From Loxodes magnus (taxonomy: Eukaryota > Ciliophora > Karyorelictea > Loxodida > Loxodidae): 64,000 bases of DNA. The notes under the pieces were generated by a model. The model worked only from the letters and a program-made list of their open reading frames with translations, did no database searches and had not been told where the DNA came from. The translations under genes were made by a program, and so were the position numbers. The DNA is taken from positions 434,001 through 498,000 of the forward strand of contig CAMPDV010000091.1 in the NCBI GenBank assembly GCA_946699065.1, read 5' to 3'. Positions 7,322-47,344 of the stretch are shown piece after piece (positions within the stretch are counted from its first letter, which is position 1; the number at the start of each line of letters is the position of its first letter).

Positions 7322-10300
7322 TCATTTTCTTAATCTTGCTTCAGCTTTAATCTAAGCATCCTTAAACTTCTCTTATCCTACTATTTTTTCTATTTCTTAG
7401 TTAGTTAACTATCTTCCACATGATTAGCATGTTGATCTTTATCCTGATTCATTATTATTAACAATTATTCTTCCTCCTGTCTTTAATTCTATCCAATCTT
7501 CTAAACATAGGTTACAAATTTAATGTCTACAACTTAATTCTGTGAAAAATTATTATTCTAATTCCATAAAGCAAATAGTGCATTATAGTATTTAAGTTGC
7601 TTATTGCCGTTAAATTTATTTTTAAAAATCTATACCTCTTGCTTCAGTACTCATATAAGGAAAATCATACTTAATTTGGAATTATTTAAACTCCTCTCGA
7701 GGACTTTCTTCCTCAGTTTTCTAAATTTCTATAAAAAACGGAGTTTCAGGATGATCGATTTAGTAACCTTATGGAACTTTGAATTCCTGTGTATATTTCT
7801 CGTTTACTTAATCAAATCCATCGGCATTTGATTAATCAATGGAGTAGATAATATCATAATGTCCTGGCTTATACAAAATATATATCAAGGGACACTTTCC
7901 TGCTATTTTCATTTATTCAAATGATAAAGCTCCTTCATAATTTCTATCAATTGTTATTATTTATATTTATACAAATAATATCACTTGAAGAGGTCCTATT
8001 CCCAATCCATCTGCCTCTTTACCCATTAATAGAACATTTTCAATGAGTTACTTATATGGAATTTAACAGAAAGGTTCGAAATATTCTCTATGAGACTCCA
8101 AATAATTAGCAGTTAAGCAGCGCATAGTTCATATGAGAGCTTCATCTTAGTTGTCTTTATTATATTATAATTCTTCAACTAAAAACTATTAAATAAACTA
8201 ATCTTTTTACTATTTTCTTTATCTCAATTTGTATAAAAATTAAACAAAAGTTTGATAGAGCTTTAAATGAACTTCATTGTTAGATTTGCTAGGTCTTATC
8301 TAATAATATCCTTATTTGCTTTCTAGTTTATTTATTAAATCTTCAAGATGTTAAATAGAAGTTGTAAATCGAGTTAAGTGTTCTAAATAAGAAAATCCAA
8401 CAGCACGGAAGTAACAGTTTCCATCACCTCTAACACTTCTGAAAGAATCAAATTTTTTTTGTAAATCTTTAACTGCTTTTTAAATATTAGCATTATGCTT
8501 AAATTCTTTAGAATAGGTATTTAAAGATTTTCTTGGATATATTTGCTTTAGTTATGACTATTGAATAATATTTTCCTATCCTTAGTCTTTGATATCGATT
8601 TAAGCATTTCCTAAGTTAGCATTCTCTTATTATTCTGATTAATTTTTATTTATAATATCTTTTGACTCTTCTTAAGGTTTTTAATTTTAATCTTATGAAA
8701 TATTTTTTAACTATTTTTCTAGCTGATCTTTTTTATCCTCTAATTTCTATTAATTCTCTTTCTCTTTTTATCCCTAAATATTCAACTCTAATTATTATGT
8801 CTCTAAATCTTTTTTTGATTGAGTGTTTTATTCTTGTTAATGCTTCAAGTCTTATTCTAGCTTAGCTATTTAGTTTTTAAATTGAGAGACTTAGTTTTCA
8901 TTTGATTTGATTGTAACTGAAAGATTGGAGATTTGATCATTAAGAGTTTTAATTTCATTTTGATAGTCTAAAATTTACTTCTTTGCGTTGGAATTTTCTT
9001 CTTATAAAGTTTATTTTTCTTATGTTATTTTAATTTTTTCTTAAGTTAAATCTTTCTTTTCTTATTCCTAGTTTTATAATTACTAGTTTATTGTTTTTAG
9101 ATTTTATTCTATTTTTTCTTTTTCTATTTTCATCTACTCTGTTAAATTTTTTTGCTGATTTAGATCTTGCTATTATTTAGCTAGTTCGTTTTAATTTGAA
9201 TTCAGTTATTCTTCTTTTTATTTTAAATTATCTTATTAACTTTTAACTTATTCATTCAGCTGTTTTATTTAGTTATTACTATTTTCATTTTGCTATTTAA
9301 TTTTTTCGTTTTCTACTTAATTTTATTATTATCCACTTATAATTGGCTATTAAAGCTTTTCATTTTCTTCTTTCAAAGTTTTTATTTAATCACCCAAGTT
9401 TATTTATATTTATTTAACTTCCTTTGTTTTATCTTCCAATTCTTTTCCCAACTCAGTTACTTCTTCTGTTTTTTGTTTTAGCTGATTTGCCAAATCTTAT
9501 AGATTATCTTATTATAGGTTTTATTCATTTTTATTTTATTGTTAATTATCTTTTTGTTCTATATTTTTTATTTCTTCTTATAGTTAGTTTAGTTTGTTTT
9601 GCAACTCAGTGTTTTATTTTCTAATACCTTCATTTTCAGTCTCAATCAACTTATTTTGCTGTATTAAATCTAATTTAGTTTATTCGTTTTGTTCTTATAA
9701 ATTTTTTATTTCATTCATAAAGTTTTGCTTTTATAAATCTATTTATGCTTCTAGCTCTTTTAGCTATTATTCTAACTGCTAAACTTGATTTTGTTATGAT
9801 TATAACTCTTACTATTAGTTCGCTTAATCACTTTGTTATTCTTCTATTTTTTCATTTATTTATTATTCTTGAGATTATTCCTTATTCAAATTGTTTTCTT
9901 TACTTATATTTAACGACTATAATTATTAGTTTTCTTCCTATAATTGCTGAATTTAGTTTTGCAAAACTAATATCTCAGCTTATAGATTTATTATATTATT
10001 TTGCTAGTAATTGTATTAATTTTTTCTTTTTTCTATTAATTGATCTCTATTTTCTACAGTTTTTTATAATATTTATAATTTTTTTTTAAGTTCCTGGTTT
10101 TACTCTTTTAGTTCTTATATTTATTTATCGCTCTCAATTATCTAATTTTTTTAGCTTTAGCTCTCTTTATTTAGTTCTTCTAATTCTTAGCACTTTTGTT
10201 TCAACTCTTGATTTTCTTTAACTTTTTTTTAAAGGTTTTAATTTATCTAATTTACTTGTTCGTCAAAATTTTTTTGCTGATTTCTATTTTTTTTATCAAA

Positions 10301-10778
10301 ATCTTTAACTTCACCTGATAATTTGGTAACTTCCTTCTTTAATTTATTTCTTTCATTTTGTATATTTTATGCATTTTTATATTCCAGTTCATTTTAAGAT
10401 TTTTAATTTTTAAGATTCTATTCAACCTCTTACATTTCTTTTTTAAGTTTTTATATTTATTCTTCGTATTTCTACTTCTCTCTTTCAAAGTCACTTCTTT
10501 ATTTTTACATTTCTTTTTTCATTTATTCTTCGTTCTATATTTAAATAAATTACCTTTTTCCATTTTACTTTTAAGAGCTATTCATTATCATTTATCTTGG
10601 TCTATTGTCTGCATTTTGAGCAATCTACTAAGAGAAATTCCTCTTTATTTTCTTCTTGCTTTACTTGAGATGATTTCAAGAGGCATTTTTAGCACATATA
10701 ATGGTTGCATTTAAGAATAACAAAATCTTATTACTAAGGTTAGTCACATTAAATGCACTAGGCTTATTAGCCACCCAT
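7322..10778 (-). CDS. RING - coiled coil - otubain (OTU) protease - RING fusion protein
   Basis: With one 19-nt intron (10553-10535) this is 1145 residues, from ATG 10778 to TGA 7322; the length fits one uninterrupted frame. The N-terminal RING has Cys8-x2-Cys11, Cys24-x-His26-x2-Cys29-x2-Cys32 and Cys53-x2-Cys56. Residues of about 75-700 are a Gln/Glu/Lys/Asn-rich coiled coil. An OTU cysteine protease of the otubain (peptidase C65) type follows: VRGDGNCYFRA gives Asp779 and Cys782, and PGHYDIIY gives His967 and Asp969, with the otubain-like MGKEADGLGIGPLQV segment between them. A second RING starts at Cys1060 (CTIC...CRHQICNLC...CQSC). Predicted role: a ubiquitin ligase and deubiquitinase on one scaffold, probably cytosolic since no signal or membrane segment is seen. 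Trp at IWTMRC is TGA. Its 5' part is duplicated in the gene at 20324. Confidence 0.9.
8818..10778 (-). repeat. Inverted duplicate of 20324 to about 22.6 kb
   Basis: From the start codon to about 8818 this sequence is nearly identical to the opposite-strand copy beginning at 20324, with only scattered substitutions. The plus copy has about 310 extra bases in the coiled coil (around 21.85-22.16 kb). The homology ends near 8818, inside the coiled coil and before the OTU domain. Confidence 0.85.
10535..10553 (-). other. 19-nt intron of the RING-OTU gene
   Basis: GT...AG segment directly after the first RING. Its removal joins the RING frame to the coiled-coil frame, and the whole 3457-nt gene then becomes a multiple of three (3438). 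An identical intron sits at the same place in the gene at 20324. Longer alternatives ending at a downstream AG also keep frame, so the 3' site is not certain. Confidence 0.65.
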
Positions 10779-10789
10779 TATTATAATTT

Positions 10790-16123: not shown

Positions 16124-18863
16124 ATGGGATGTAAATAAGTGAGATGCAATGTGTGTGATGAAGCTTCTTCAAATAACTATTTGATACTAGATTGTGGGCA
16201 TTGTACTTGTGAAAAGTGTTCAGCTAAGATAAGTATTAAAGAAGGATTTGATAAAACAGAATTTATCGTTTTTGAATGTCCTCGCTGCAAGTAATAATCT
16301 AAAATAGTAGATCCTGTCTAAATTGCTAGGCTTAAATTATTCAAGGTAATTTTCTTTTATTCAGGTTTAATAAGAAAACTTAACTTTATAGCAAAAAATA
16401 CTTGAACTACAAGAGCAACTGAAGGCAAAAATAAGTGAACACGAGTAAAAATCTTAAGAAATTAAACAGCAAATCTAGCTACAAAACTAGGTCTAGCAAA
16501 GTACACTTTAGGAACTTCAAACTATATAGCAACAAAAAGAAAAACTAGATTCTATTTAAAAAGAAGCACTTTAGGATAAGGAAATTATAGCCTAATTATA
16601 AAATAAGCTCTAAGAAACTTTAGCTTTATATAATTAAAATTTGGAAGAAAAGAATAAAATTACTCAATAACTAGCTAATCTATAAGAAACTCTTTAAAAC
16701 TAAGAAAAAGAAAATCTTTAATGGAAGGAAAAACATGATAATGTCCAAATTTAAGTAGAAGACATTAAAAAGAACCTTACTGATTAGCTTGGAAACTTAA
16801 ACTAAAAAAATAATGAACTTGAAAAATAGAAAAAAGAAATATAGCAAGAATAAATAAAAATAGAAGAAGAAAATAAAAATAGTAAGCTATAAAACGAGGA
16901 TCTAAACAAGAAGATACAATAGCTAAATGAAACGCTATAAATTAAAGAAAAAATTCATTAAGAACTAACTTCTACAAAAAATGATTAAGAAGGTTTACAA
17001 AAAAATATATAGTAGTTATAAGAAAAAGTGATTAAAGAAGAGAATGAAAAAGAATAACTAAAAATAAAGCTAAATCAACTTGAAAAGTAAAACTAAGATC
17101 AAAAACAAGATTATAACAATTAAACCAACATTCTAAAATAGGAAAACGAAAAACTGCAAAAATAAATAACTTAAATAAATGAAGAAAAATAGAATTACTA
17201 AAACGAAAATTCTAGTATAAAACAACAAAACTAAAATCATTTAAATGAAATCAAAACTCTTAACGAATAAATCTAAAACCTTTCTTCTAACTAAAAACAA
17301 AACGATAACTTAATTTCTTCCCTCTAAAAAGAAACTAGTAATCTATAAAAAGAAATTTAACTATAAAAAGATCTTTAAGAACAACTTAACAAAGATAAAC
17401 TTAATTTAGAAAACTCTCTTAACCTTCAAAAATAAGATTCAATCAAACATGAACAAGAAAAAAAATCTCTTGAATCCGAAATCTCTAAATTTAAACAGGA
17501 ACTTACTCAAAATCAGAACGATAATAAAAATATCTAGCAATAGTTAGATAATAAAAACAATGAAATTAAAACTCTTAACGATCAAATCTCAAATCTTTCA
17601 GTTACAATCAAATCAAATGAAAACTAAGTCTCTCAATTTAAAAACTAAATAGCTAAGCTAGAATAAGACTTGAAGCATTAACAAGAATAAAACACTCAGA
17701 TGAAAAAAGATAAAGAAACTGCTGATAAAGCTCTATTAAATAAAAAATAAGAAACTGAAAATCTAGAAAAAGAAAAGAAAGATATTGAATAAGAAAATAG
17801 TAAGATAAAATAGGATTTATAATAAGTATAAAACGAAAATTCTAGTATAAAATAACAAAACTAAAATCATTTAAATGAAATCAAAACTCTTAACGAATAA
17901 ATCTAAAACCTTTCTTCTAACTAAAAACAAAACGATAACTTAATTTCTTCCCTCTAAAAAGAAACAAGTAATCTATAAAAAGAAATTTAACTATAAAAAG
18001 ATCTTTAAGAACAACTTAACAAAGATAAACTTAATTTAGAAAACTCTCTTAACCTTCAAAAATAAGATTCAATCAAACACGAACAAGAAAAAAAATCTCT
18101 TGAATCCGAAATCTCTAAATTTAAACAGGAACTTACTCAAAATCAGAACGATAATAAAAATATCTAGCAATAGTTAGATAATAAAAACAATGAAATTAAA
18201 ACTCTTAACGATCAAATCTCTAATCTTTCAGCTACAATCAAAACAAACGATAACTAAGTCTCTCAACTTAAAAACTAAATGGCTTAACTACTTTAAGACT
18301 TAAAACAGTAGCAAGATTTAAACACTCAATCGAAAAAAGATAAAGAAACTGCTGATCAAGCTTTATTAAATAAAAAATAAGAAACTGAAAATCTAGAGAA
18401 AGAAAAGAAAAGTGTTGAATAAGAAAATAGTAAGATAAAATAGGATTTGTAATAAGTTTAAACTGAAAACTAAAACATTAAGAAATAGATAACTGATACT
18501 TAAAACTAAATAAAACAACTTTAAGAATCTAATAATAAGAGCCAATAAGAGTAAGTAGTTTTAAAAAGTGAAAATCAAAACTTGTAATAAAGTCTTAAAT
18601 AACTATAAGAGTAGCAAAGCAAGAAAGAAGAAGAAGTAAGTTAATAGAAAAAGAAACAATAAGAAGAGATTCAATAAAAGTAATAGATGATAGAGAGTCT
18701 TGAGAAGAAAAGTAGTAGTTTAGAGTAAGAAAACAGGTAGCTAAATGAGAAGTTATCTTAATTATAAAAGGAGATATAATAACTTTAAGGAGAGTACGCA
18801 AAAGCTTAGAATTAGATAAAGGAGGAATAGAACAAAGAAAAGAAAGAAGAAAGTAATCCTTGA
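16124..18863 (+). CDS. RING-finger coiled-coil protein 1
   Basis: ATG 16124 to TGA 18863, about 897 or 906 residues depending on the intron end. The N-terminal RING has Cys8-x2-Cys11, Cys24-x-His26-x2-Cys29-x2-Cys32 and Cys52-x2-Cys55 (CNVC, CGHCTCEKC, CPRC), predicting a ubiquitin E3 ligase. The rest is a continuous Gln/Glu/Lys/Leu/Asn-rich coiled coil, ending in a highly charged tail before the stop (...KEKKEESNP). It contains two copies of a 630-bp (210-codon) unit starting at about 17201 and 17831. It lacks the OTU protease and second RING of the gene at 7322. Its last 1.03 kb is nearly identical to the 3' end of the gene at 20324. Confidence 0.85.
16346..16391 (+). other. Intron of RING protein 1 (19 or 46 nt)
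   Basis: The RING frame and the coiled-coil frame join if GT at 16346 is spliced either to AG 16364 (19 nt) or to AG 16391 (46 nt). Both lengths are 1 modulo 3. The 27 bases between the two sites would add nine residues (VQQENLTLQ). The 19-nt form matches the intron size and position of the other two genes. Confidence 0.6.
17201..18460 (+). repeat. Two tandem 630-bp units in the coiled coil
   Basis: Bases 17201-17830 recur at 17831 onward with few changes; for example AAACGAAAATTCTAGTATAA opens both units. The period is 210 codons, exactly 30 heptads, as expected if unequal exchange must preserve coiled-coil register. The same 630-bp spacing occurs at 22458 and 23088 in the third gene. Confidence 0.85.
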
Positions 18864-18869
18864 TCTAAA

Positions 18870-19500
18870 ACTTTAATAAACTTATTAATATAAAATAATA
18901 AACTAATTTAAATAAAATTCTTTATTTCGAAAAAATTGTATGTCTATTAAAATAATTTATTATCTTATAATTTTTATAATAAATACTTAATCTCAAAATT
19001 ATAAATAAAATAAAAGTTATTAAAAGTTATTTTTAGATACTTGTGTTTGGTATATATAAGCAAATTATGTATTTCATAAAATTTAGTATTTTACGAATTT
19101 TTAATTTTAAAAATCTAAATTAAAATTACTAAAATCTTAATTTCTAAATAATAAATTGATGCTTTAAATCCAGAATTATATAATTTATGTAATTTTTTTC
19201 TATATTTTTAAATTTTCTATTTTTTTCCTTATTAATTTTGTTAAAATAATAAAGATTTATGAAAAGCTTAATATATAAAGTTAATTTTTTGCTTAAAATT
19301 TATTTTAAATAAGTAAGCTTTTCACTGTTATCAGCTAGGCAGCTTTTTTAAGTTAAATAATTTACTTAGTTATAAAGAAATAATAAGTATTTCATTAATT
19401 TTGTTTATCTTTTGAGAGTAAAGTTTTGGATAACTTAAATTTGTTATTTTTTTAAATGTTTGCTCTATACAACTACTAATAGGTCTTATTATAAATTGAA
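18870..19500. other. AT-rich spacer, nothing recognised
   Basis: Intergenic sequence downstream of RING protein 1. About 30 bases after its stop are shared with the 3' flank of the gene at 20324, after which the sequences diverge. Confidence 0.5.
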
Positions 19501-19506
19501 TATAAA

Positions 19507-20358
19507 ATGGTAAAAGAGCTTGAATGATATTATTAATAATAAAGAAAATAAAATAGCAGAGGAATTAGAATTAATTGATGAATGCCATTTCATTTATGTC
19601 TTATTTCATTTATACCTTAAAAAGATAAAAGTGGTACTAAATTTAATTCCCCAACATCATTTTATTTAACTACTATCTCTCTAACTCTTCTTTAGATGCA
19701 AATAAATTTAATTATATTTTTGTACTAAAATAGAGTTCAAATGAGCATTAAGAGTGAATTGAAGCAAAGGATAGAAAATAATTAAGTTAAGTTCTATTAA
19801 AATAAAAAACATAAGTATGAGTATTAAATATACTAAGATATTAATTTAAATAACCTAAGAATTACAAGCTTTTATTTTATTTCCTAGTAAATAACTCACT
19901 AGAGCTTTGATCATCTTAATATTTAAGAAAATATCTAAAATAGCTAATAAACTTAAAAAGAGAAAATTTATCTTTTTTGAATTCATAAATGTATTGCTGA
20001 TAGATACCAATTTAAAAATATTAGGCAAAAGTAGTTCTATAAATAAGCGTAAATCTAGTATTCTAAAAAAGGATGTGAAAAATTAAAAAAAGCATAGTAA
20101 AATATCACGGAAAATTCTTTAGCAAAAGCTTGTATATAACTCTCAAAAATTATGAATTAATTTAGAAATTGTATCTAATATAATTTAGATACTTCTAGTT
20201 ATTAAAAAGTAGATAAATATGGGATTAATTAAATAGCTTTAGAAGAAAAAACAATAATTTAAATACTTTAATTTAAAGCTAAAATAGAGGGATATATAAA
20301 CTCTTTTCTTTTAAATTATAATAATGGGCGGCCAATAAACCTAGTGCATTTAGTGTGA
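19507..20358 (+). CDS. Possible uncharacterised protein
   Basis: A plus-strand frame from ATG 19507 (or ATG 19741) to TGA 20358, 283 or 205 residues. It is Lys/Gln/Asn/Ile-rich, with stretches such as MSIKSELKQRIENNQVKFYQ. It runs 35 bases into the RING protein at 20324 in another frame, which is unusual and argues against it. No domain is recognised and nothing similar precedes the 10778 copy. It may be noncoding. Confidence 0.28.
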
Positions 20359-23300
20359 CTAGCCTTTGTAATAAGATTTTGTCATCATTGAATGCAACCA
20401 TTATATGTGCTAAAAATGCCTCTTGAAATCATCTCAAGTAAAGCAAGAAGAAAATAAAGAGGAATTTCTCTTAGTAGATTGCTCAAAATGCAGACAATAG
20501 ACCAAGATAAATGATAATGAATAGCTCTTAAAAGTAAAATGGAAAAAGGTAATTTATTTAAATATAGAACGAAGAATAAATGAAAAAAGAAATGTAAAAA
20601 TAAAGAAGTGACTTTGAAAGATCGAATTAAAAGCATGATAAAGAAAAATAACAACTTTAAAAAGAAAAGTAAGAGATTGAAAAGAAGTTCAAAGAGTTAA
20701 ACTCTTTATATGAACAAGAGACTCAAAAAGTTTAAAGTCTATTAAATGAAAAGAATTAGTTAAAAAAGGAAAACACCAATTTATAAGGTTTAGTTAAAGA
20801 TTTCGATAAAAAGAGAGAAAATAGATAGAAAAAATCTGATGAATAAATAAATTAGATAAATTAAAGTCTTTAAAAAGAAATCAAAGAAAACCAATTGTTG
20901 AAGCAGAAACTTTAACTCCTAAATGAATAAACTGAAAAAACAAAATAAAGCTAAGAAAATTAAGTAGGTGAATGCGATTAATAAATCTAAGAACTAAAAA
21001 GATAGAAGTAAGAAATTATAAATAAGCTTTAAATATAATAAAATATAATAAATAAAAAAGAAAGATATATCAAGCAAAGAAGTTGGTAATTTAATAACAA
21101 TTAATAGGGTGCTATAGAAAATCTATAAGCTGAGATATTAGTTTTCCAAAACTAAATTCAGCAATTATAGGAAGAAAACTAATAATTATAGTCGTTAAAT
21201 ATAAGTAAAGAAAACAATTTGAATAAGGAATAATCTCAAGAATAATAAATAAATGAAAAAATAGAAGAATAACAAAGTGATTAAGCGAACTAATAGTAAG
21301 AGTTATAATCATAACAAAATAAAGTTTAGCAGTTAGAATAATAGTTAAAAGAGCTAGAAGCATAAATAGATTTATAAAAGCAAAACTTTATGAATGAAAT
21401 AAAAAATTTATAAGAACAAAACGAATAAACTAAATTAGATTTAATACAGCAAAATAAGTTGATTGAGACTGAAAATGAAGGTATTAGAAAATAAAACACT
21501 GAGTTGCAAAACAAACTAAACTAACTATAAGAAGAAATAAAAAATATAGAACAAAAAGATAATTAACAATAAAATAAAAATGAATAAAACCTATAATAAG
21601 ATACTCTATAAGATTTGGCAAATCAGCTAAAACAAAAAACAGAAGAAGTAACTGAGTTGGGAAAAAAATTGGAAGATAAAACAAAGGAAGTTAAATAAAT
21701 ATAAATAAACTTGGGTGATTAAATAAAAACTTTGAAAGAAGAAAATGAAAAACTTTAATTACCAATTATAAGTGGATAATAATAAAATTAAGTAGAAAAC
21801 GAAAAAATTAAATAGCAAAATGAAAATAGTAATAACTAAATAAAACAGCTGAATGAATAACTTTAAAACTTGCAAGCTACTTAAAAATTAACTGAAAATT
21901 AACTTAGTTAACTTAAAGCTGAAAATACTTAAGCATAATAGGAAATAAAACTATAAAAAGATCAAACTGAACAATAAAAGAAAGAAAAAGAAAATTTAGA
22001 GTAAACAGTTTAAAAAATAAGTCAAGAGTTAATAAGTAAAGAATAAGAAAAGAAATCACTTGAATAGCAAATCAATAAAATGAATCAAGAAGCATTAAAC
22101 GAAAATAAGTCTACAAGTTAGCAAAATGAAAACTTGGTAAACGAAATAAAAAAGCTAAATGAATAAGTTAGAAGTTAATAAGATAATTTAAAATAAAAAG
22201 AAGAATAACTGAATTCAAATTAAAACGAACTAGCTAAATAATAGCAAGATCTAAATCAGCAAAAAAGTTTAACAGAGTAGATGAAAATAGAAAAAGAAAA
22301 AATAGAATAAAATCTAAAAACAATAAACTAGTAATTATAAAACTAGGAATAAGAAAAGAAAGATTTAACTCAAGAAAAAATTAAAATAACATAAGAAAAA
22401 TAAACTTTATAAGAAGAAAATTCCAACGCAAAGAAGTAAATTTTAGACTATCAAAATGAAATTAAAACTCTTAATGATCAAATCTCTAATCTTTCAGTTA
22501 CAATCAAATCAAACGAAAACTTAGTCTCTCAATTTAAAAACTAAATAGCTAAGCTAGAATAAGACTTGAAGCATTAACAAGAATAAAACACTCAGATGAA
22601 AAAAGATAAAGAAACTGCTGATCAAGCTTTATTAAATAAAAAATAAGAAACTGAAAATCTAGAGAAAGAAAAGAAAAGTGTTGAATAAGAAAATAGTAAG
22701 ATAAAATAGGATTTATAATAAGTATAAAACGAAAATTCTAGTATAAAACAACAAAACTAAAATCATTTAAATGAAATCAAAACTCTTAACTAATAAATTT
22801 AAAACCTTTCTTCTAACTAAAAACAAAACGATAACTTAATTTCTTCCCTCTAAAAAGAAACAAGTAATCTATAAAAAGAAATTTAACTATAAAAAGATCT
22901 TTAAGAACAACTTAACAAAGATAAACTTAATTTAGAAAACTCTCTTAACCTTCAAAAATAAGATTCAATCAAACACGAACAAGAAAAAAAATCTCTTGAA
23001 TCCGAAATCTCTAAATTTAAACAGGAACTTACTCAAAATCAGAACGATAATAAAAATATCTAGCAATAGTTAGATAATAAAAACAATGAAATTAAAACTC
23101 TTAACGATCAAATCTCTAATCTTTCAGCTACAATCAAAACAAACGATAACTTAGTCTCTCAACTTAAAAACTAAATGGCTTAACTACTTTAAGACTTAAA
23201 ACAGTAGCAAGATTTAAACACTCAATCGAAAAAAGATAAAGAAACTGCTGATCAAGCTTTATTAAATAAAAAATAAGAAACTGAAAATCTAGAGAAAGAA

Positions 23301-23759
23301 AAGAAAAGTGTTGAATAAGAAAATAGTAAGATAAAATAGGATTTGTAATAAGTTTAAACTGAAAACTAAAACATTAAGAAATAGATAACTGATACTTAAA
23401 ACTAAATAAAACAACTTTAAGAATCTAATAATAAGAGCCAATAAGAGTAAGTAGTTTTAAAAAGTGAAAATCAAAACTTGTAATAAAGTCTTAAATAACT
23501 ATAAGAGTAGCAAAGCAAGAAAGAAGAAGAAGTAAGTTAATAGAAAAAGAAACAATAAGAAGAGATTCAATAAAAGTAATAGATGATAGAGAGTCTTGAG
23601 AAGAAAAGTAGTAGTTTAGAGTAAGAAAACAGGTAGCTAAATGAGAAGTTATCTTAATTATAAAAGGAGATATAATAACTTTAAGGAGAGTACGCAAAAG
23701 TTTAGAATTAGATAAAGGAGGAATAGAACAAAGAAAAGAAAGAAGAAAGTAACCCTTGA
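20324..23759 (+). CDS. RING-finger coiled-coil protein 2 (mosaic gene)
   Basis: ATG 20324 to TGA 23759, 1138 residues after removing the 19-nt intron at 20549-20567. The RING has the same Cys/His spacing as the RING-OTU protein (CIQC, CNHYMCQKC, CSKC). The rest is coiled coil, with two 630-bp repeat units near the 3' end. The first 2.1-2.3 kb is nearly identical to the RING-OTU gene on the opposite strand. From about 22.45 kb it follows RING protein 1 instead (from about 22727 at a constant offset of 4896 bp). The OTU protease and C-terminal RING are therefore absent. Likely a ligase-type scaffold able to form coiled-coil assemblies with both relatives. Confidence 0.85.
20549..20567 (+). other. 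19-nt intron of RING protein 2
   Basis: GT...AG segment identical in sequence and position to the intron of the RING-OTU gene. Removing it gives 3417 coding bases in one frame. Confidence 0.65.
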
Positions 23760-23789
23760 TCTAAAACTTTAATAAACTTATTAATAAAT

Positions 23790-25200
23790 AATAATTTTAC
23801 TAAGTTAAATCATTTTAGTTGATGCTTGCAATAATTTTAAAAATAAGTTTTAGATAAATATAAATTTTAATTAAATCTAAAATTAAGTTTAACTTTAAAA
23901 TAATTTATAAGTATCAAGATGTGCTTTATCATGAAAATCTAAAAATATAAAATATAAATAAAATATCTATATGGTTTCTATCATACTTTATTTATATTTT
24001 AATTTATTTTATTGATATTATAAAATCCAAAATTTTAAAGAACTTAATCTCTAATCTATCTAAATATTTATAATTTTAAGATTATGATTATTATTATTAT
24101 TTTTATCTTCTAAACTTTATAGCATCTTATTAAATTATTGTAAGATACTAGTAAATTATTTCTAAAAAATACATGCACTAAAAATAAATTTTCAAATTAC
24201 TAATATCTTTAAAATATTTCTTTGATGTTTGAATAATTACTTATTTTAGATTTTTTAAACTTCAGTTATTTTTCCATTTACTTGTAAATTAGATTCTTCA
24301 ATTATTTATTTAATTATTTGAAAGTTAGTTATATTTATTCTTGTCTTCAAAGTTTTCCTAGCTTATTCTTTTAATTTAAAGAATTTAGATTTTAGAATGA
24401 AACATAGTTAATATAATACTTTTCAAAATTATTTTTATTTAAGAATTATATACTTCAAGAATGGTTTTTTTCTATCTAGTTAAATTGTTTTATTTTAAAG
24501 CTTCTTAGTTTTTTTCTATTTTATCACTTATTTATTAATTAAATAATTTACAAATATAGAAAAGCTAATACTTGAAGATATTTTTAATAATGCTAAAAGA
24601 AGTTAAATTTTTTCAGAGTTTAGGGCTTTTGTTAGATCTTGACAAATTGATCTTGTTGGCTTTTAATAAAAGAAGATAAAGAAGAAATTGGATACTAGCT
24701 AAGTTAGATAGTTAGTTATTGTAATTATTATAATTATTAGATTATTATAATTAGAAACAGGCTAAGCATTTTGGATATTTTACATCTATTTATTTAGCTA
24801 ATAAACTAACTTATAGAAATTAGTTGTTCTTGCTTACTTGGGAAAGAAATATATATTTATAGAAATAATATTAAATTTTCAAAATTTATGCTTATAATTA
24901 GGCTTAAGTCATTAGCATAACTTTGGGATATATAAGTGATATAATCTTTAGTTTATTTATATTGTAAACTGAAATTTCTTTAGTTAAATTAAAAAGTGAA
25001 ACTAGTGGAGGTAGGAATAAATTAAATTGAGTTATTAATGCAATTAATACAAAAAGAATACTTCACAAGAGTGGTGAACACTTATAAGTTAGTTATTTTG
25101 GTTATTGTTTAAGTTGGTTCTTCTTCATATTCTTAAATGTTTAAATCGGAATTCATTACAAAAGTTATTCTTAAGTGACTTCACTGGCTTCATTATAAAA
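23790..25200. other. AT-rich spacer, nothing recognised
   Basis: Highly A/T-biased interval downstream of the third RING gene. No conserved motif or RNA gene was seen. Confidence 0.5.
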
Positions 25201-29417: not shown

Positions 29418-32400
29418 TCATATCTATTTTAATTTAGCTAAGAACTTGTTTAATAAAAAATATTCTTAATTCAGTTAAGAAGGAGGCTCAGTTTCCTTAA
29501 TGACTGCTCCGTATGAATCACTTTGAATAAGAATAGAAAACTTCTTGACTTTATCAATTAACTAAGTATTAAGAGATATATAGTTAAATCTTCCTCTTAT
29601 ATCTGTATAGCCATCTTTGTAGAATATAACTTCATTAGTTATCTTCAGAATTGCAAAGCACTTTATATAAATTTAAGGAAGGGGCTTATTTTCAAGCTCT
29701 ACTTTAATGTGACCAAGTTGTTTAATTATTTAGATTTATAAAGGAGATCAGAAGTACATTACTCCATCTCTTATCTTAGTTTGGGTGGATTTATTTCTAT
29801 AAATTACTTGAATAAAAATATTTTTCTAAGCTACTTCTTGAGGAATTTATACTTATTGAGCATTATTTTCTAAAACTTAAGTGAGATATGGGTTTACAAA
29901 TGAAAAGTCACAATTATTTGCAAAAAATGGATTCTTTGAAAAGAGAACTTCTAAATCTAAGGGATAGTACTTAATTTCTAATTAGTCTATATTTCTTATA
30001 ACTTTGAATTCAATTTCTTTCCCATGTAATTAAAACCAAATTTCAGGTTACTAAAGTAACTGATTATCTTACTTGTTCTAAATAACTTCTTTTAAGCCTA
30101 AGTTTGATAGGATTAGTTAAAACAATCTTCTTCATTTTATAATTGGAAAGTTCTGAAATTGCTGGCTTATAGCAGTAGCTTATAAAAATTATTATTCCTT
30201 GTACATATCTAAATATGCTAGTAGATATTAATACTGTATATAGCTGCTTTTTTCTTTTATTTAAGTAGCAATTTCATTGCAATCGTTTATTCTATCTTAA
30301 CAAATAAGGTAAAAACACCATACTAGCTTATCATCTTCATCCATTTGTTGTTTTTATAGTAGATAGTCTAAAAATTATTAATACTTTTGAGTAAATTCTT
30401 AGTTTATAAGACTATAAGTTTGAAGTTAGTGAACTCTTTACCTGATAAAAAGCTGGAACTCTTAAATTATAGAATATTAAAAGTTATCAATTTTGATTTA
30501 TTTAGATTCAAAGTAGATTAAGGTTTCAATATTAGAAGGTTATGAATAACTTATTCTTTCTAAGATGTTTTAAATATCTTAGTGCATGAAACTAAAGTTA
30601 AATGTTTACTCATCATATAGCATTCTCTCTATGAGTATTTTAGCAAACTCTTTAAAAAATAGCTTGTTATGTAAGAGATGATATATGCTGCTGAATCTGA
30701 AATCACTGTTATATATTTTATTCTTATGGATTCATTGAAGGATCTAATCTAAGTTTTAGCTCTTTACAACTTTATCGAAAGTCATATATTTACTATCTAA
30801 TTCATTCTGTTCTTTATTTTTCGCAACTATCTAGAAACTTCTCATGGTGGTTTTTGAAATAACTGTATTATTTACTGATACAAATATAGGAGAATGGATA
30901 GTATATCCTTCAGATGGAAAATAGAAATAGAATTCAAAGAAGTTAGTTTGATGAGAAGCTAAGCCTAATTATCTAATTTAGTAATAGTCTTAAGTAAGAA
31001 TCGATATGCTATGTTTAGGAATTTCAGCTAAGATACTTAAGTTAAGGTAATTCTAAGAAAGATTTGTAACTATAACTTGACATCCTATTACTGTATCTGT
31101 TATCATTTAGCTAAAATTTTTTTCTACTTTTTCTTATTTCTCATTAGTGTAATAGCGATCAAAATAGTCAAAATATCTTACTGTTGTTATAATTTAATTT
31201 TATATATTTTCCTTTGCTTCTATTGTTCCTTTATAAAACAAAATTATATTAGATGCACATTTAATTCTAACTCCACGATTTTCAAATCTAAATCCATGCT
31301 ACTTTGCTTTGAATGGGAGATCTAATAATGCCAAAGTTGATAGAGCTTCAGTTAAACTTTAAACTGAAAAGATAAAAGAAGATTATAATCGAATGTTATT
31401 AATATTCTTTATAATATCTTTGAAAAAAATAGCGCTAAAGTTAATATTATCCAGCTTTAGCTATTTTTGATTATAATAATTCGTTTCAGAATATTCTTTG
31501 GTCTAAGACATTGGCTTATAAATTTATGTTAGTTATTAGCGCTTCTCTATTAAAAACTGATTTTCTTCATCTTATTTATTCTCTTCATTCTCTTTATTTT
31601 AAATCAGTATTTTTGGCACTATTTTTTTTAATATCGCTTGCCTTATTGTTTAATCATTCGTTTCAAATGACTAAAATGGAATATCAGCAACTTATTATTT
31701 TTCTTTTATCAATTGTTAAGATTTTGTGAATAATGATCCTAGAAAACCCCTTTTAGATTAATAAACTTAAGCTTTCTATAATTCTAAATGTCCTTATTAA
31801 ACTCCTTTGAATTCTTGGCATACTTAGATATCTATTTCCTCTAGCAATTATCCTTAGTTTTAGATTGTTAAGTTTAAAACATCAAATTCGCTTTATCTAT
31901 CAATTTATTTAGCTTAAGCTATGACTTAATTAATTTTTTCAATTTATTAATCTTTTTCTTTTAATTTCATTTCTTCAATAAATTATGCGATTTCATTTTC
32001 AACTGGATCTCTGCTGTATAGCAAAACAGTATCAAAGGCAAGCTAAAAATATTCTTTATTTATTTATTTTTTTTCCATAAAGCTATTAGGCTTGCTTTCC
32101 TTAAGTTTTAAGAGCAATAGCGTTTTTTCCAAGCAGTTAAGAAGTTAGAAATTTTGAACCATTAAACACTTAGTCATATCCTCATCTAAAAGCCATTTAT
32201 CAATAAATTGTTTTTCGTACTTATTTTATAAGAATGGACAAACAACTGCTTCAAAATACTCTCTGTCTTTTAGTTTTAAAAATAAATTTAATTCGTGACT
32301 GAAATACCTATAGTAGTATTCGTTTTTTCTTTCAAAAGTCATTTCATCTCACTAAGTTAGGAATCTCCATTCATAAAGTTACTTTTCAACTTCAGGTAGT

Positions 32401-40172: not shown

Positions 40173-40910
40173 ATGGCTTCTAAGAAATAACAGAACTTTG
40201 AACAAAACATTTAAACAGGAAAATTCTCTAAAAAATAAAAAAGCGAAATAATTATAATGAGTGAAAGTGAGAAATATGATTGATATGACGAACATTAACC
40301 ACTTGGAAATCCAGAATTAAAAAAATTTCCGACACAAACTCAAATAGAAATATTATCTAAGTCATTAAAAGAGTTTATGTTTAAAAATAGATACCTCACT
40401 GATAAAGTAGAAAAATTAGAAAAATTAATAACGTCTTTACTTGAGAAACAATATTAATCATCATAAGAAATAGAAGACAAACTGGAACAAAGAATTCTTT
40501 AAATTTAATAATAAATTCAGGTTACGCTATTTTCGATTTAACAGAATTAGTCAGATCCTATGGAAATAGAAAATGAAGCCTCAAATTAAAATAAACAGTA
40601 AACATTTATTTAAAATAAGTAGTAAATTTAAATTAAATAAGTGTTACAGGAATAATAGGCTAAAAGAAGAATAAAATACTACGTGTGCAATAAATAACAC
40701 CAATGAAAATACTGCTACTAACTAAGAGAAATTTAAAAAAAGAATAAATAAGATATTTTTAGAAAACTATTTAGGATATATCCAACATAAAGCGGAAAAA
40801 TTTATAGAAAATTTTTTTAAAATCCAAATCTTAATCCTTGGATAAATAATTAGGAACGCTACATGCAAGATGAAAACTATTCAGAATATTAAAGGATGGT
40901 GCGCTAATGA
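40173..40910 (+). CDS. Family A copy 5: coiled-coil protein with degenerate knuckle
   Basis: ATG 40173 to TGA 40910, 245 residues, with TGA read as Trp at two internal positions. It begins MASKKQQNFEQNIQTGKF. A YDWYDEHQPLGNPELKKF segment follows, whose xEHxPxGNPE core recurs in copy 8. Next come a Leu/Lys/Glu-rich coil, a degenerate knuckle (YYVCNKQHQWKYC) and the family GKIYRKFF motif. The copy at 47344-46607 has the same length on the opposite strand. The 3' part contains the 35-base head motif in reverse (about 40890-40925). The function is unknown. Confidence 0.5.
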
Positions 40911-41030
40911 AGTGCTACACCGCCTAACTAAGCCTAGTAGAAATTAAAGACAAACTAATGGAGACAAGCTGATAGAATAGGTCAGATGGCTGACTACTAA
41001 GGCCTTAACAAAGCTTTTTAACTTTTTAAC
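40173..41030 (+). repeat. Left arm of an 850-bp inverted repeat
   Basis: The sequence from ATG 40173 to about 41030 is almost identical to the reverse complement of about 46480-47344. Both arms end in AGGCCTTAACAAAGC followed by repeated AACTTTTT units. The 5' flanks differ, so the duplicated unit starts essentially at the start codon. Confidence 0.8.
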
Positions 41031-41039
41031 TTTAACTTT

Positions 41040-41640
41040 TTAACCAAAAATTTTAACTATATAAATACTTTATCCTGCAAATATTCTTAAATATTTTTAT
41101 AAATATAAAATCTCTTTACTTTTAGTTGTTTGTAGAATTATAATTTTATTTACTATTTAAAATATTATCTCTTTGAATATTAAAATAAATAAAAAGTTAA
41201 AAACTACATAGCCATAGATGAACTTTTGATTTATTATAATATAAAGATAAAAAATAATAATTTTGAAAATATGGTTTAATAACTATTAAAAGTTTAAATA
41301 AGAAACAAATAAATAAATAGATCTTATAGAAATAATATAAACATGTTGCAAATATTTTGTAGTTTTTATTTTAATTAGATATAATATTAATTAATTAAGC
41401 TAGAAAAATAATTTTATTAATGAAATTAGAAGGTTTGGTATCTGTAACTATAATAGTATTAATTTACCCATTTAAAGAAATTAAGAAAATTAATCAATAA
41501 GCAAATTAATAAAATATAAATAAAGTTTAAAAAAATAATTTAACTATTTTAAATATCTTACTACTGTTTAAAATAATAAATTAATTTTTATTTTATTTTA
41601 TCTTTTATTTTTAAAGTTTACTTTTAAACTAATGAATAAT
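41040..41640. other. AT-rich spacer, nothing recognised
   Basis: No feature is supported between family A copy 5 and the first SPRY gene. Confidence 0.5.
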
Positions 41641-45793: not shown

Positions 45794-46479
45794 TGTAATT
45801 CTGATAAAATTATATTCGATAATTGATAAATGCTTCAAAATACTTTTAAGTCTCTTTTTAGACCTAAGTCACAATTCTATTTCTTACGTTATTTAAAATT
45901 TTTCCATTCGTTTCTTATTATCTTGTTCAGCTAATTAGCCTCTTACTGTAGGTCCAACAACATTTTAATAAATTAATCAAAACTTATTTATTGCACAGTA
46001 GTTAAATCAAAGATTTCCAATTATAAAATATTATTAAGCTTACATTTTTTATAAAATTGAAAAAACTATGCTATTTAAATAAACTTGAGAATAAAAATAT
46101 GATAAAGTAAAAAATTCCTTACAAAACATAATGAGGATAAAGGTTTTTATTAATTTTTATTTCTGAATAAATTAGCATTTTTAATTGTTAAGAAATTTTC
46201 TTTTTTTCTTTTTACTTTCCATAACTTAATAGGCCTTTAAAACCATTATATTATAATTTTATTTTAACCTATTTATAATAAGAAATAATTGCTTGATTTT
46301 CTAACAATTTGGTATAGGCACTTGCGATTATAAAATTTAATCTATATAACGTACTATATTCGTTAAAAATCAATATATAAGTATTTATTAATGAAAAAAT
46401 AAAATACTAAAATAATCAAAATTACTTATTCAACATTTATAAACTCTCTTATCCTACTTAATCATTTTTGCTCATAAAA

Positions 46480-47344
46480 AGTTAAAGTTAAAAAGTTAAA
46501 AAGCTTTGTTAAGGCCTTAGTAGTCAGCCATCTGACCTATTCTATCAGCTTGTCTCCATTAGTTTGTCTTTAATTTCTACTAGGCTTAGTTAGGCGGTGT
46601 AGCACTTCATTAGCGCACCATTCTTTAATATTCTGAATAGTTTTCATCTTGCATGTAGCGTTCCTAATTATTTATCCAAGGATTAAGATTTGGATTTAAA
46701 AAAAATTTTCTATAAATTTTTCCGCTTTATGTTGGATATATCCTAAATAGTTTTCTAAAAATATCTTATTTATTCTTTTTTTAAATTTCTCTTAGTTAGT
46801 AGCAGTATTTTCATTGGTGTTATTTATTGCACACGTAGCATTTTATTCTTCTTTTAAACTATTATTCCTGTAACACTTATTTAATTTAAATTTACTACTT
46901 ATTTTAAATAAATGTTTACTGTTTATTTTAATTTGAGGCTTCATTTTCTATTTCCATAGGATCTGACTAATTCTGTTAAATCGAAAATAGCGTAACCTGA
47001 ATTTATTATTAAATTTAAAGAATTCTTTGTTCCAGTTTGTCTTCTATTTCTTATGATTATTAATATTGTTTCTCAAGTAAAGACGTTATTAATTTTTCTA
47101 ATTTTTCTACTTTATCAGTGAGGTATCTATTTTTAAACATAAACTCTTTTAATGACTTAGATAATATTTCTATTTGAGTTTGTGTCGGAAGTTTTTTTAA
47201 TTCTGGATTTCCAAGTGGTTAATGTTCGTCATATCAATCATATTTCTCACTTTCACTCATTGTAATTATTTCGCTTTTTTTTTTTTTAGAGAATTTTCCT
47301 GTTTAAATGTTTTGTTCAAAGTTCTGTTATTTCTTAGAAGCCAT
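46480..47344 (-). repeat. Right arm of an 850-bp inverted repeat
   Basis: Reverse-complement partner of 40173-41030. The arms enclose about 5.4 kb containing the first SPRY gene, two short B elements and the GC-rich block at 45.2 kb. Confidence 0.8.
46607..47344 (-). CDS. Family A copy 6: coiled-coil protein with degenerate knuckle
   Basis: 245 residues on the minus strand, ATG 47344 to TGA 46607, the same length as copy 5 and nearly identical to it. One visible difference is a run of A within codons of about 21-27 that changes the K/Q content. It carries the same degenerate knuckle, GKIYRKFF motif and reverse head motif. High identity between inverted copies points to recent duplication or gene conversion. 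Confidence 0.5.

Follow-up and report, generated by a model that had tools for sequence, protein, structure and literature searches.

A predicted RING–coiled coil–otubain–RING protein of Loxodes magnus within a large, mosaic otubain family

Does a single gene of the karyorelict ciliate Loxodes magnus carry both the RING fingers of a ubiquitin ligase and an otubain protease, and what would such a protein do? The question arises from a 64,000-nucleotide stretch of contig CAMPDV010000091.1 (positions 434,001 to 498,000; hereafter the window), in which a first-pass annotation had placed a single spliced frame at 7322–10778. We found these coordinates to be exact on the minus strand: the gene (gene A) runs from 10778 to 7322, and its exons join across a 19-nt intron into one frame of 1145 amino acids, as had been proposed. 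Exon 1 (10554–10778, minus strand; 75 codons) holds the start codon, an N-terminus reading MGGQQAQC, and an N-terminal RING (aa 8–56, nt 10757–10611). Exon 2 (10534–7322, minus strand) encodes a coiled coil (aa 76–740, nt 8540–10534), an otubain (Peptidase_C65) domain (aa 750–973, nt 7841–8512), and a C-terminal RING (aa 1060–1114, nt 7418–7582), and closes with a TGA stop (7322–7324) followed by AT-rich sequence. Introns of 13, 31, 34, and 37 nt are also possible; we prefer the 19-nt intron (10535–10553, minus strand; GTAATTTATTTAAATATAG) because its length matches the reported L. magnus mean of 19.3 bp (PMC11441545) and because a 19-nt GTAATTT...AG intron stands in the same place in both paralogs in the window, identical in gene C (20324–23759, plus strand) and of different GT..AG sequence in gene B (16124–18863, plus strand). 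The post-RING intron position is thus common to all three genes.

In the L. magnus code, TAA and TAG are read as Gln and TGA as Trp or stop (PMC11441545). The frame of gene A contains one internal TGA (8131–8129), absent from the first-pass account, which we read as Trp877. Across a main set of 27 aligned copies (gene A, the 20 best-scoring genomic matches described below, and six chosen copies, hence biased toward high scores), this column is Trp in 27/27, encoded by TGA in 14 and by TGG in 13, and on this ground we rejected a stop, a pseudogene mark, or a sequencing error at this position. Scans of the 64-kb window for tRNAs and Rfam families gave no matches.

The domain assignments rest on profile scores, residue patterns, and periodicity. 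The Peptidase_C65 profile scored 126.8 bits (cut-off 24.3), and the closest solved structures were those of OTUB1 (8e-23 in the PDB, or 3e-28 with a family profile), among them an E2-fused structure (4ddg). All three residues of the predicted catalytic set were found where they had been placed, at Asp779 (8425–8423), Cys782 (8416–8414), and His967 (7861–7859), and the triad is present in every main-set copy. By domain score and by these Asp, Cys, and His residues, the protein falls within the otubains (MEROPS C65, Pfam PF10275). The C-terminal RING scored 26.5 bits with zf-C3HC4 (cut-off 21), and the N-terminal RING fell under its cut-offs (zf-C3HC4 19.6 versus 21; zf-RING_5 21.9 versus 27.9). 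The profile search that had been proposed as a check thus recovered the otubain domain and the C-terminal RING and left the N-terminal RING slightly short. The N-terminal RING of gene C passes zf-C3HC4 (22.5 versus 21), and the exon-1 RING parts of the two genes agree at 71 of 75 residues. Both RINGs of gene A have all eight zinc ligands in C3HC4 order, the pattern of RING E3 ligases. Among 12 aligned copies, seven ligand columns of the C-terminal RING are invariant and one nearly so, and the otubain active-site block shows no variation. The C-terminal RING reads CTIC and CLEDW, with a spacing like that of E2-binding RINGs and with the Ile and Trp that contact the E2 in other RINGs; the N-terminal RING lacks the Trp of such RINGs.

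Between the N-terminal RING and the otubain domain, 665 residues show a strong 3.5-residue period and contain only two prolines. Their heptad power (0.730) compares with a shuffle mean of 0.228 and was reached by none of 1000 shuffles. The N-terminus, MGGQQAQ, fits the myristoylation motif. Folding from unaligned sequence gave low confidence, with mean pLDDT values of 37.2 for the OTU-RING half and 51.9 for the N-RING exon, both folded alone, and these models were set aside. The proposed order of RING, coil, otubain, and RING is well supported by profiles, zinc ligands, and the heptad signal, with a coil of 665 residues.

Alternatively, the RING-coil and OTU-RING parts could be two genes that share a frame by accident. 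In favor of this, the window also contains free-standing RING-coil genes, and the coil/OTU joint is where DNA homology breaks (see below). In several other copies, a Met close to the joint might in principle initiate a separate product. Against this, the joint of gene A contains neither TGA nor Met, and its coil frame has no TGA in 665 codons, compared with 11 and 26 for the two alternative frames. All 27 copies of the main set are open across the joint: the nearest upstream TGA lies 70 to 1294 codons 5′ of the active-site motif, and the joint itself about 43 codons 5′ of that motif. For L012 and L032, the open frame extends only about 30 codons beyond the joint. Upstream of the OTU domain, an ad hoc rule finds coil-like composition in the OTU frame in 27/27 copies. 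L052, a decayed relative on the window's contig, matches both halves of gene A, at 87% over the RING and first part of the coil and at 76% over OTU-RING. With the open frame, the coil composition, the intron position shared with genes B and C, and the double match of L052, we conclude that gene A is most likely a single gene, and we regard two genes as very improbable. The idea that the halves are separate genes accordingly fails for gene A, and survives insofar as RING-coil genes also exist on their own.

L052 (C91:32000–37500, gene at about 32–37 kb) is a decayed full-length copy with a retroelement-like insertion and frame breaks.

A scan of the 705.73-Mb, 7843-contig assembly with PF10275 yielded 474 candidates; 150 of them were scored, every one above the cut-off. 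The genome therefore holds at least 150 otubain matches, on 49 contigs (40 on C37, 21 on the window's contig C91, and 9 on C493), a count that includes possible allelic contigs, since C897 and C2897 give matching scores. It is a lower bound because three RING stretches without a listed OTU (L047, L050, and L051) each proved to contain one. Two others, L048 and L049, have RINGs and no OTU within the stretch read; L049 (C397:135400–137700) has two to three tandem RINGs similar to the C-terminal RING. C-terminal RING matches lie just 3′ of many OTU matches, and in the main set such a match follows the OTU in 27/27 copies, although it is weak in L013 and L025 and the L030 match is in another frame.

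The catalytic Cys and His are both present in 39 of the 43 examined copies: 27/27 of the main set, 9/12 from the 15 lowest-scoring matches, 3/3 of L047, L050, and L051, and 0/1 for L052. L035 and L036 lack both residues, L037 lacks His, and L052 lacks Cys; the first three may be pseudoenzymes. In L030 and L051 the frame is broken, within or ahead of the C-terminal RING. Because of these losses and breaks, we read some family copies as decayed. The ratio dN/dS in the OTU domain was 0.03–0.11 in five diverged pairs, three of which have a dS close to saturation or past it; for a sixth, L015–L034, it was not computable. In recent pairs it was 0.10–0.72, on few differences. These substitution ratios show purifying selection on the otubain domain.

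The N-terminal RING is less general. A profile iterated from five pattern matches found it in 10 of the 27 long loci; in three of these (L014, L021, and L027) the matched stretch does not include the last Cys pair. A strict pattern found it in 7/27 (0/27 in an opposite-strand control), and allowing one 15–26-nt intron inside the N-RING added no loci to these seven; all these counts are for fetched stretches that the coil overruns in some loci. RINGs at both ends are therefore supported for part of the family only and not family-wide.

Several paralogs begin with MG, often with a Cys nearby (L011, L014, L018, L021, L027, L031, and the window genes A, B, and C), including MGC, MGNC, MGDC, and MGQCC; L012, L024, L029, and L032 begin with MS instead. 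The MG(C) form suggests lipid anchoring of these paralogs.

We found that the two ends of these genes have different histories. Gene A is 95.7% identical in DNA to L029 and 94.5% to L030, from 8557 to about 7250 only. The joint motif LKQIYPRKSL (8522–8551, minus strand) lies just inside this shared cassette, and the front of gene A is unrelated to the L029 and L030 fronts by blastn; L029 has an N-terminal RING of its own (MSQTFKCQSC). The same boundary recurs. Among the 28 pairs, not mutually independent, whose OTU domains are at least 85% identical, the main alignment starts 15–44 nt before the OTU in 24, one of which, L021–L027, yet shares its front as well, at 98%. At a threshold of 95%, high DNA identity ends 30–44 nt before the OTU in 10 of 14 pairs, and upstream in those 10 there is nothing beyond weak coil matches of 66–71%; front sequence is shared within the other pairs, L011–L018, L016–L017, L029–L030, and L021–L027. 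L015–L022, among the compared pairs, is already fairly diverged (89%). In five recent pairs with comparable fronts, dN/dS was about 0.5–2.2 in the coil and 0.17–0.61 in the OTU, on few changes.

Fronts are also found on genes without an OTU. Gene C has a RING nearly identical to that of gene A and a similar coil start, and ends within the coil at a TGA; gene B has a RING (MGCKQVRCNVC) and a coil. Window positions 10789–9053 in the front of gene A match 20313–22055 in gene C at 86.4% over 1753 nt, and 9295–8799 match 22119–22615 at 95.8% over 499 nt; between their first exons there are 6 synonymous and 4 nonsynonymous differences. Positions 17559–18913 of gene B are 98.4% identical to 22455–23810 at the coil end of gene C, and L053 is a further copy like gene B (96–97%). 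The coils of genes B (16124–18863) and C (20324–23759) also contain internal repeats spaced by about 630 nt (210 aa).

From these alignments, the OTU-RING end appears to be a conserved, homogenised cassette and the RING-coil front a variable part, common also to OTU-less genes. Either of two processes fits: gene conversion of the cassette among copies whose fronts differed already, or exchange of fronts, the latter a process that we propose rather than observe. A DNA recombination signal at the joint was rejected as an explanation, as synonymous positions there vary between subgroups (by eye).

How might the parts of gene A work together? We favor, with a probability of about 0.4, the reading that gene A specifies one 1145-residue ubiquitin-editing enzyme, oligomerised through its coiled coil, in which chains are built and trimmed or restrained by the same molecule, as a member of this mosaic family. 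The N-terminus MGGQQAQ would probably be lipid-anchored, the long coil would dimerise or oligomerise the protein and hold the target, and the variable front would set target specificity. The C-terminal RING would recruit E2~ubiquitin and build chains, and the otubain domain would trim chains beside it or restrain E2~Ub in the manner of OTUB1. Ligase output would then be limited by the same molecule, because the adjoining otubain trims the chains or holds E2~Ub. The enzymatic activities, membrane anchoring, and oligomerisation are thus predictions from sequence; the two RINGs, the long coil, and the active-looking otubain suggest an oligomeric scaffold that builds and trims chains or restrains E2~Ub. 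The self-limiting or chain-editing machine imagined in the first-pass annotation is, on the same basis, plausible.

Three other readings divide the same evidence differently. The OTU could be mainly non-catalytic, holding E2~Ub from the neighbouring RING so that the protein is a restrained ligase with chain cleavage secondary. OTUB1 structures, one of them E2-fused, are its closest solved relatives, OTUB1 is described as trapping E2~Ub without catalysis (PMC6254341), and L035 and L036 still have a readable OTU without the Cys; yet a purely non-catalytic role would not need the Cys and His that 39 of 43 copies retain, or an active-site block invariant in 12 aligned copies, and we think this reading unlikely. 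Conversely, the protein could be a targeted deubiquitinase whose coil and RINGs serve in localisation or oligomerisation, without ligase activity. The RING profile scores are weak to moderate, and the N-terminal RING was not found in many copies and lacks the Trp of E2-binding RINGs. Against this reading, the C-terminal RING passes its Pfam cut-off with all eight ligands, keeps the ligand columns invariant or nearly so in the 12 aligned copies, and has CTIC and CLEDW at a spacing like that of E2-binding RINGs; we think it unlikely.

Finally, the arrays could be largely the product of neutral or selfish duplication, each copy having little function. The genes stand in tandem, L052 is interrupted by retroelement-like sequence, L030 and L051 have frame breaks, and the coil dN/dS is about 0.5–2.2 in five recent pairs. 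However, OTU ratios of 0.03–0.11 among diverged copies, and the catalytic residues kept in most copies examined, make this quite unlikely as an account of the family. The ubiquitin-editing enzyme remains our preferred reading of gene A. For the family as a whole, we entertain as a doubtful extension that well over 100 genes form a recombining ubiquitin-editing repertoire, in which a constant otubain-RING effector would be repeatedly re-joined to diverse RING-coil recognition fronts, through cassette gene conversion and front exchange, as an intracellular recognition or self/non-self system.

The protein is best understood next to known systems. The catalytic domain of OTUB1 and OTUB2 (MEROPS C65) is homologous and shares the Cys, the His, and the DGNC block. 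These two are small single-domain proteins, whereas the OTU of gene A stands between a coil and a RING, in a genome with at least 150 otubain matches; most eukaryotes have one or two otubains. The closest functional analogue is A20, which also joins a deubiquitinase to a zinc-finger ligase in one polypeptide. The A20 OTU belongs to another OTU subfamily and lies at the N-terminus, and the protein has seven zinc fingers, unlike the otubain OTU, RINGs, and long coil of gene A. Membership in the A20 family was rejected, as the OTU is of the C65 type and no A20 finger matched up to E 1 (aa 1–144 and 744–1145 scanned). A20 (TNFAIP3) has been described as combining an OTU deubiquitinase with a ZnF4 ligase on one chain and termed ubiquitin-editing (PMC9110840). 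The principle of ligase and deubiquitinase on one chain is therefore already known; what appears new is the otubain, RING, and coil combination and the scale of the family.

Other comparisons reach only part of the protein. TRIM proteins share an N-terminal RING followed by a coiled coil and have variable family members. Gene A differs in having no B-box and in ending with OTU-RING rather than a TRIM C-terminal domain; we did not assign it to this family, as the coil directly follows the RING and the only B-box match, to TRIM66 (E 0.7; aa 1–144), overlaps the RING. RNF8, a protein with a coil plus a RING, matches the C-terminal RING weakly (E 0.004), but it has no OTU, and no FHA domain was seen in the gene A protein. 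Clustered protocadherins and var genes likewise have one end nearly constant and another that differs; in Loxodes the end that stays the same is a catalytic OTU-RING, and the comparison does not extend to programmed rearrangement.

In the open-access literature on otubain or OTU with RING, on ciliates, on expansions, and on Loxodes, we found no description of the architecture. The main text of the Loxodes genome paper (PMC11441545) has no word starting with “ubiquitin” or “expan”. A paper touching on otubains and Tetrahymena (PMC11071308) was set aside as a prior description, as it concerns viral polymerase OTUs of different architecture. A scan of viral contigs with the family alignment gave 25 pattern matches; tblastn showed no relative there.

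The interest of the locus lies in one protozoan genome with at least 150 otubain matches, in a gene that fuses this domain to RINGs and a long coil, and in gene ends that evolve differently. The family lends itself, as a natural series, to asking how a ligase and a deubiquitinase restrain each other when they share a chain, and may be a single-cell instance of an arms-race family composed of ubiquitin enzymes.

Of the other features in the window, a 538-aa open reading frame (30735–32348, minus strand) has gene-like composition, its only Pfam match being a sub-threshold ThiJ-like one. Two further frames, at 40261–41226 (plus strand) and 46465–47256 (minus strand), have an identical start (VKVRNMIDMTNINHLEIQNQKNFRHK) in opposite orientations; the former has no Pfam match. 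The L052 coil contains a similar stretch, with CCHC-like cysteine clusters close by, and these frames look like a retroelement ORF.
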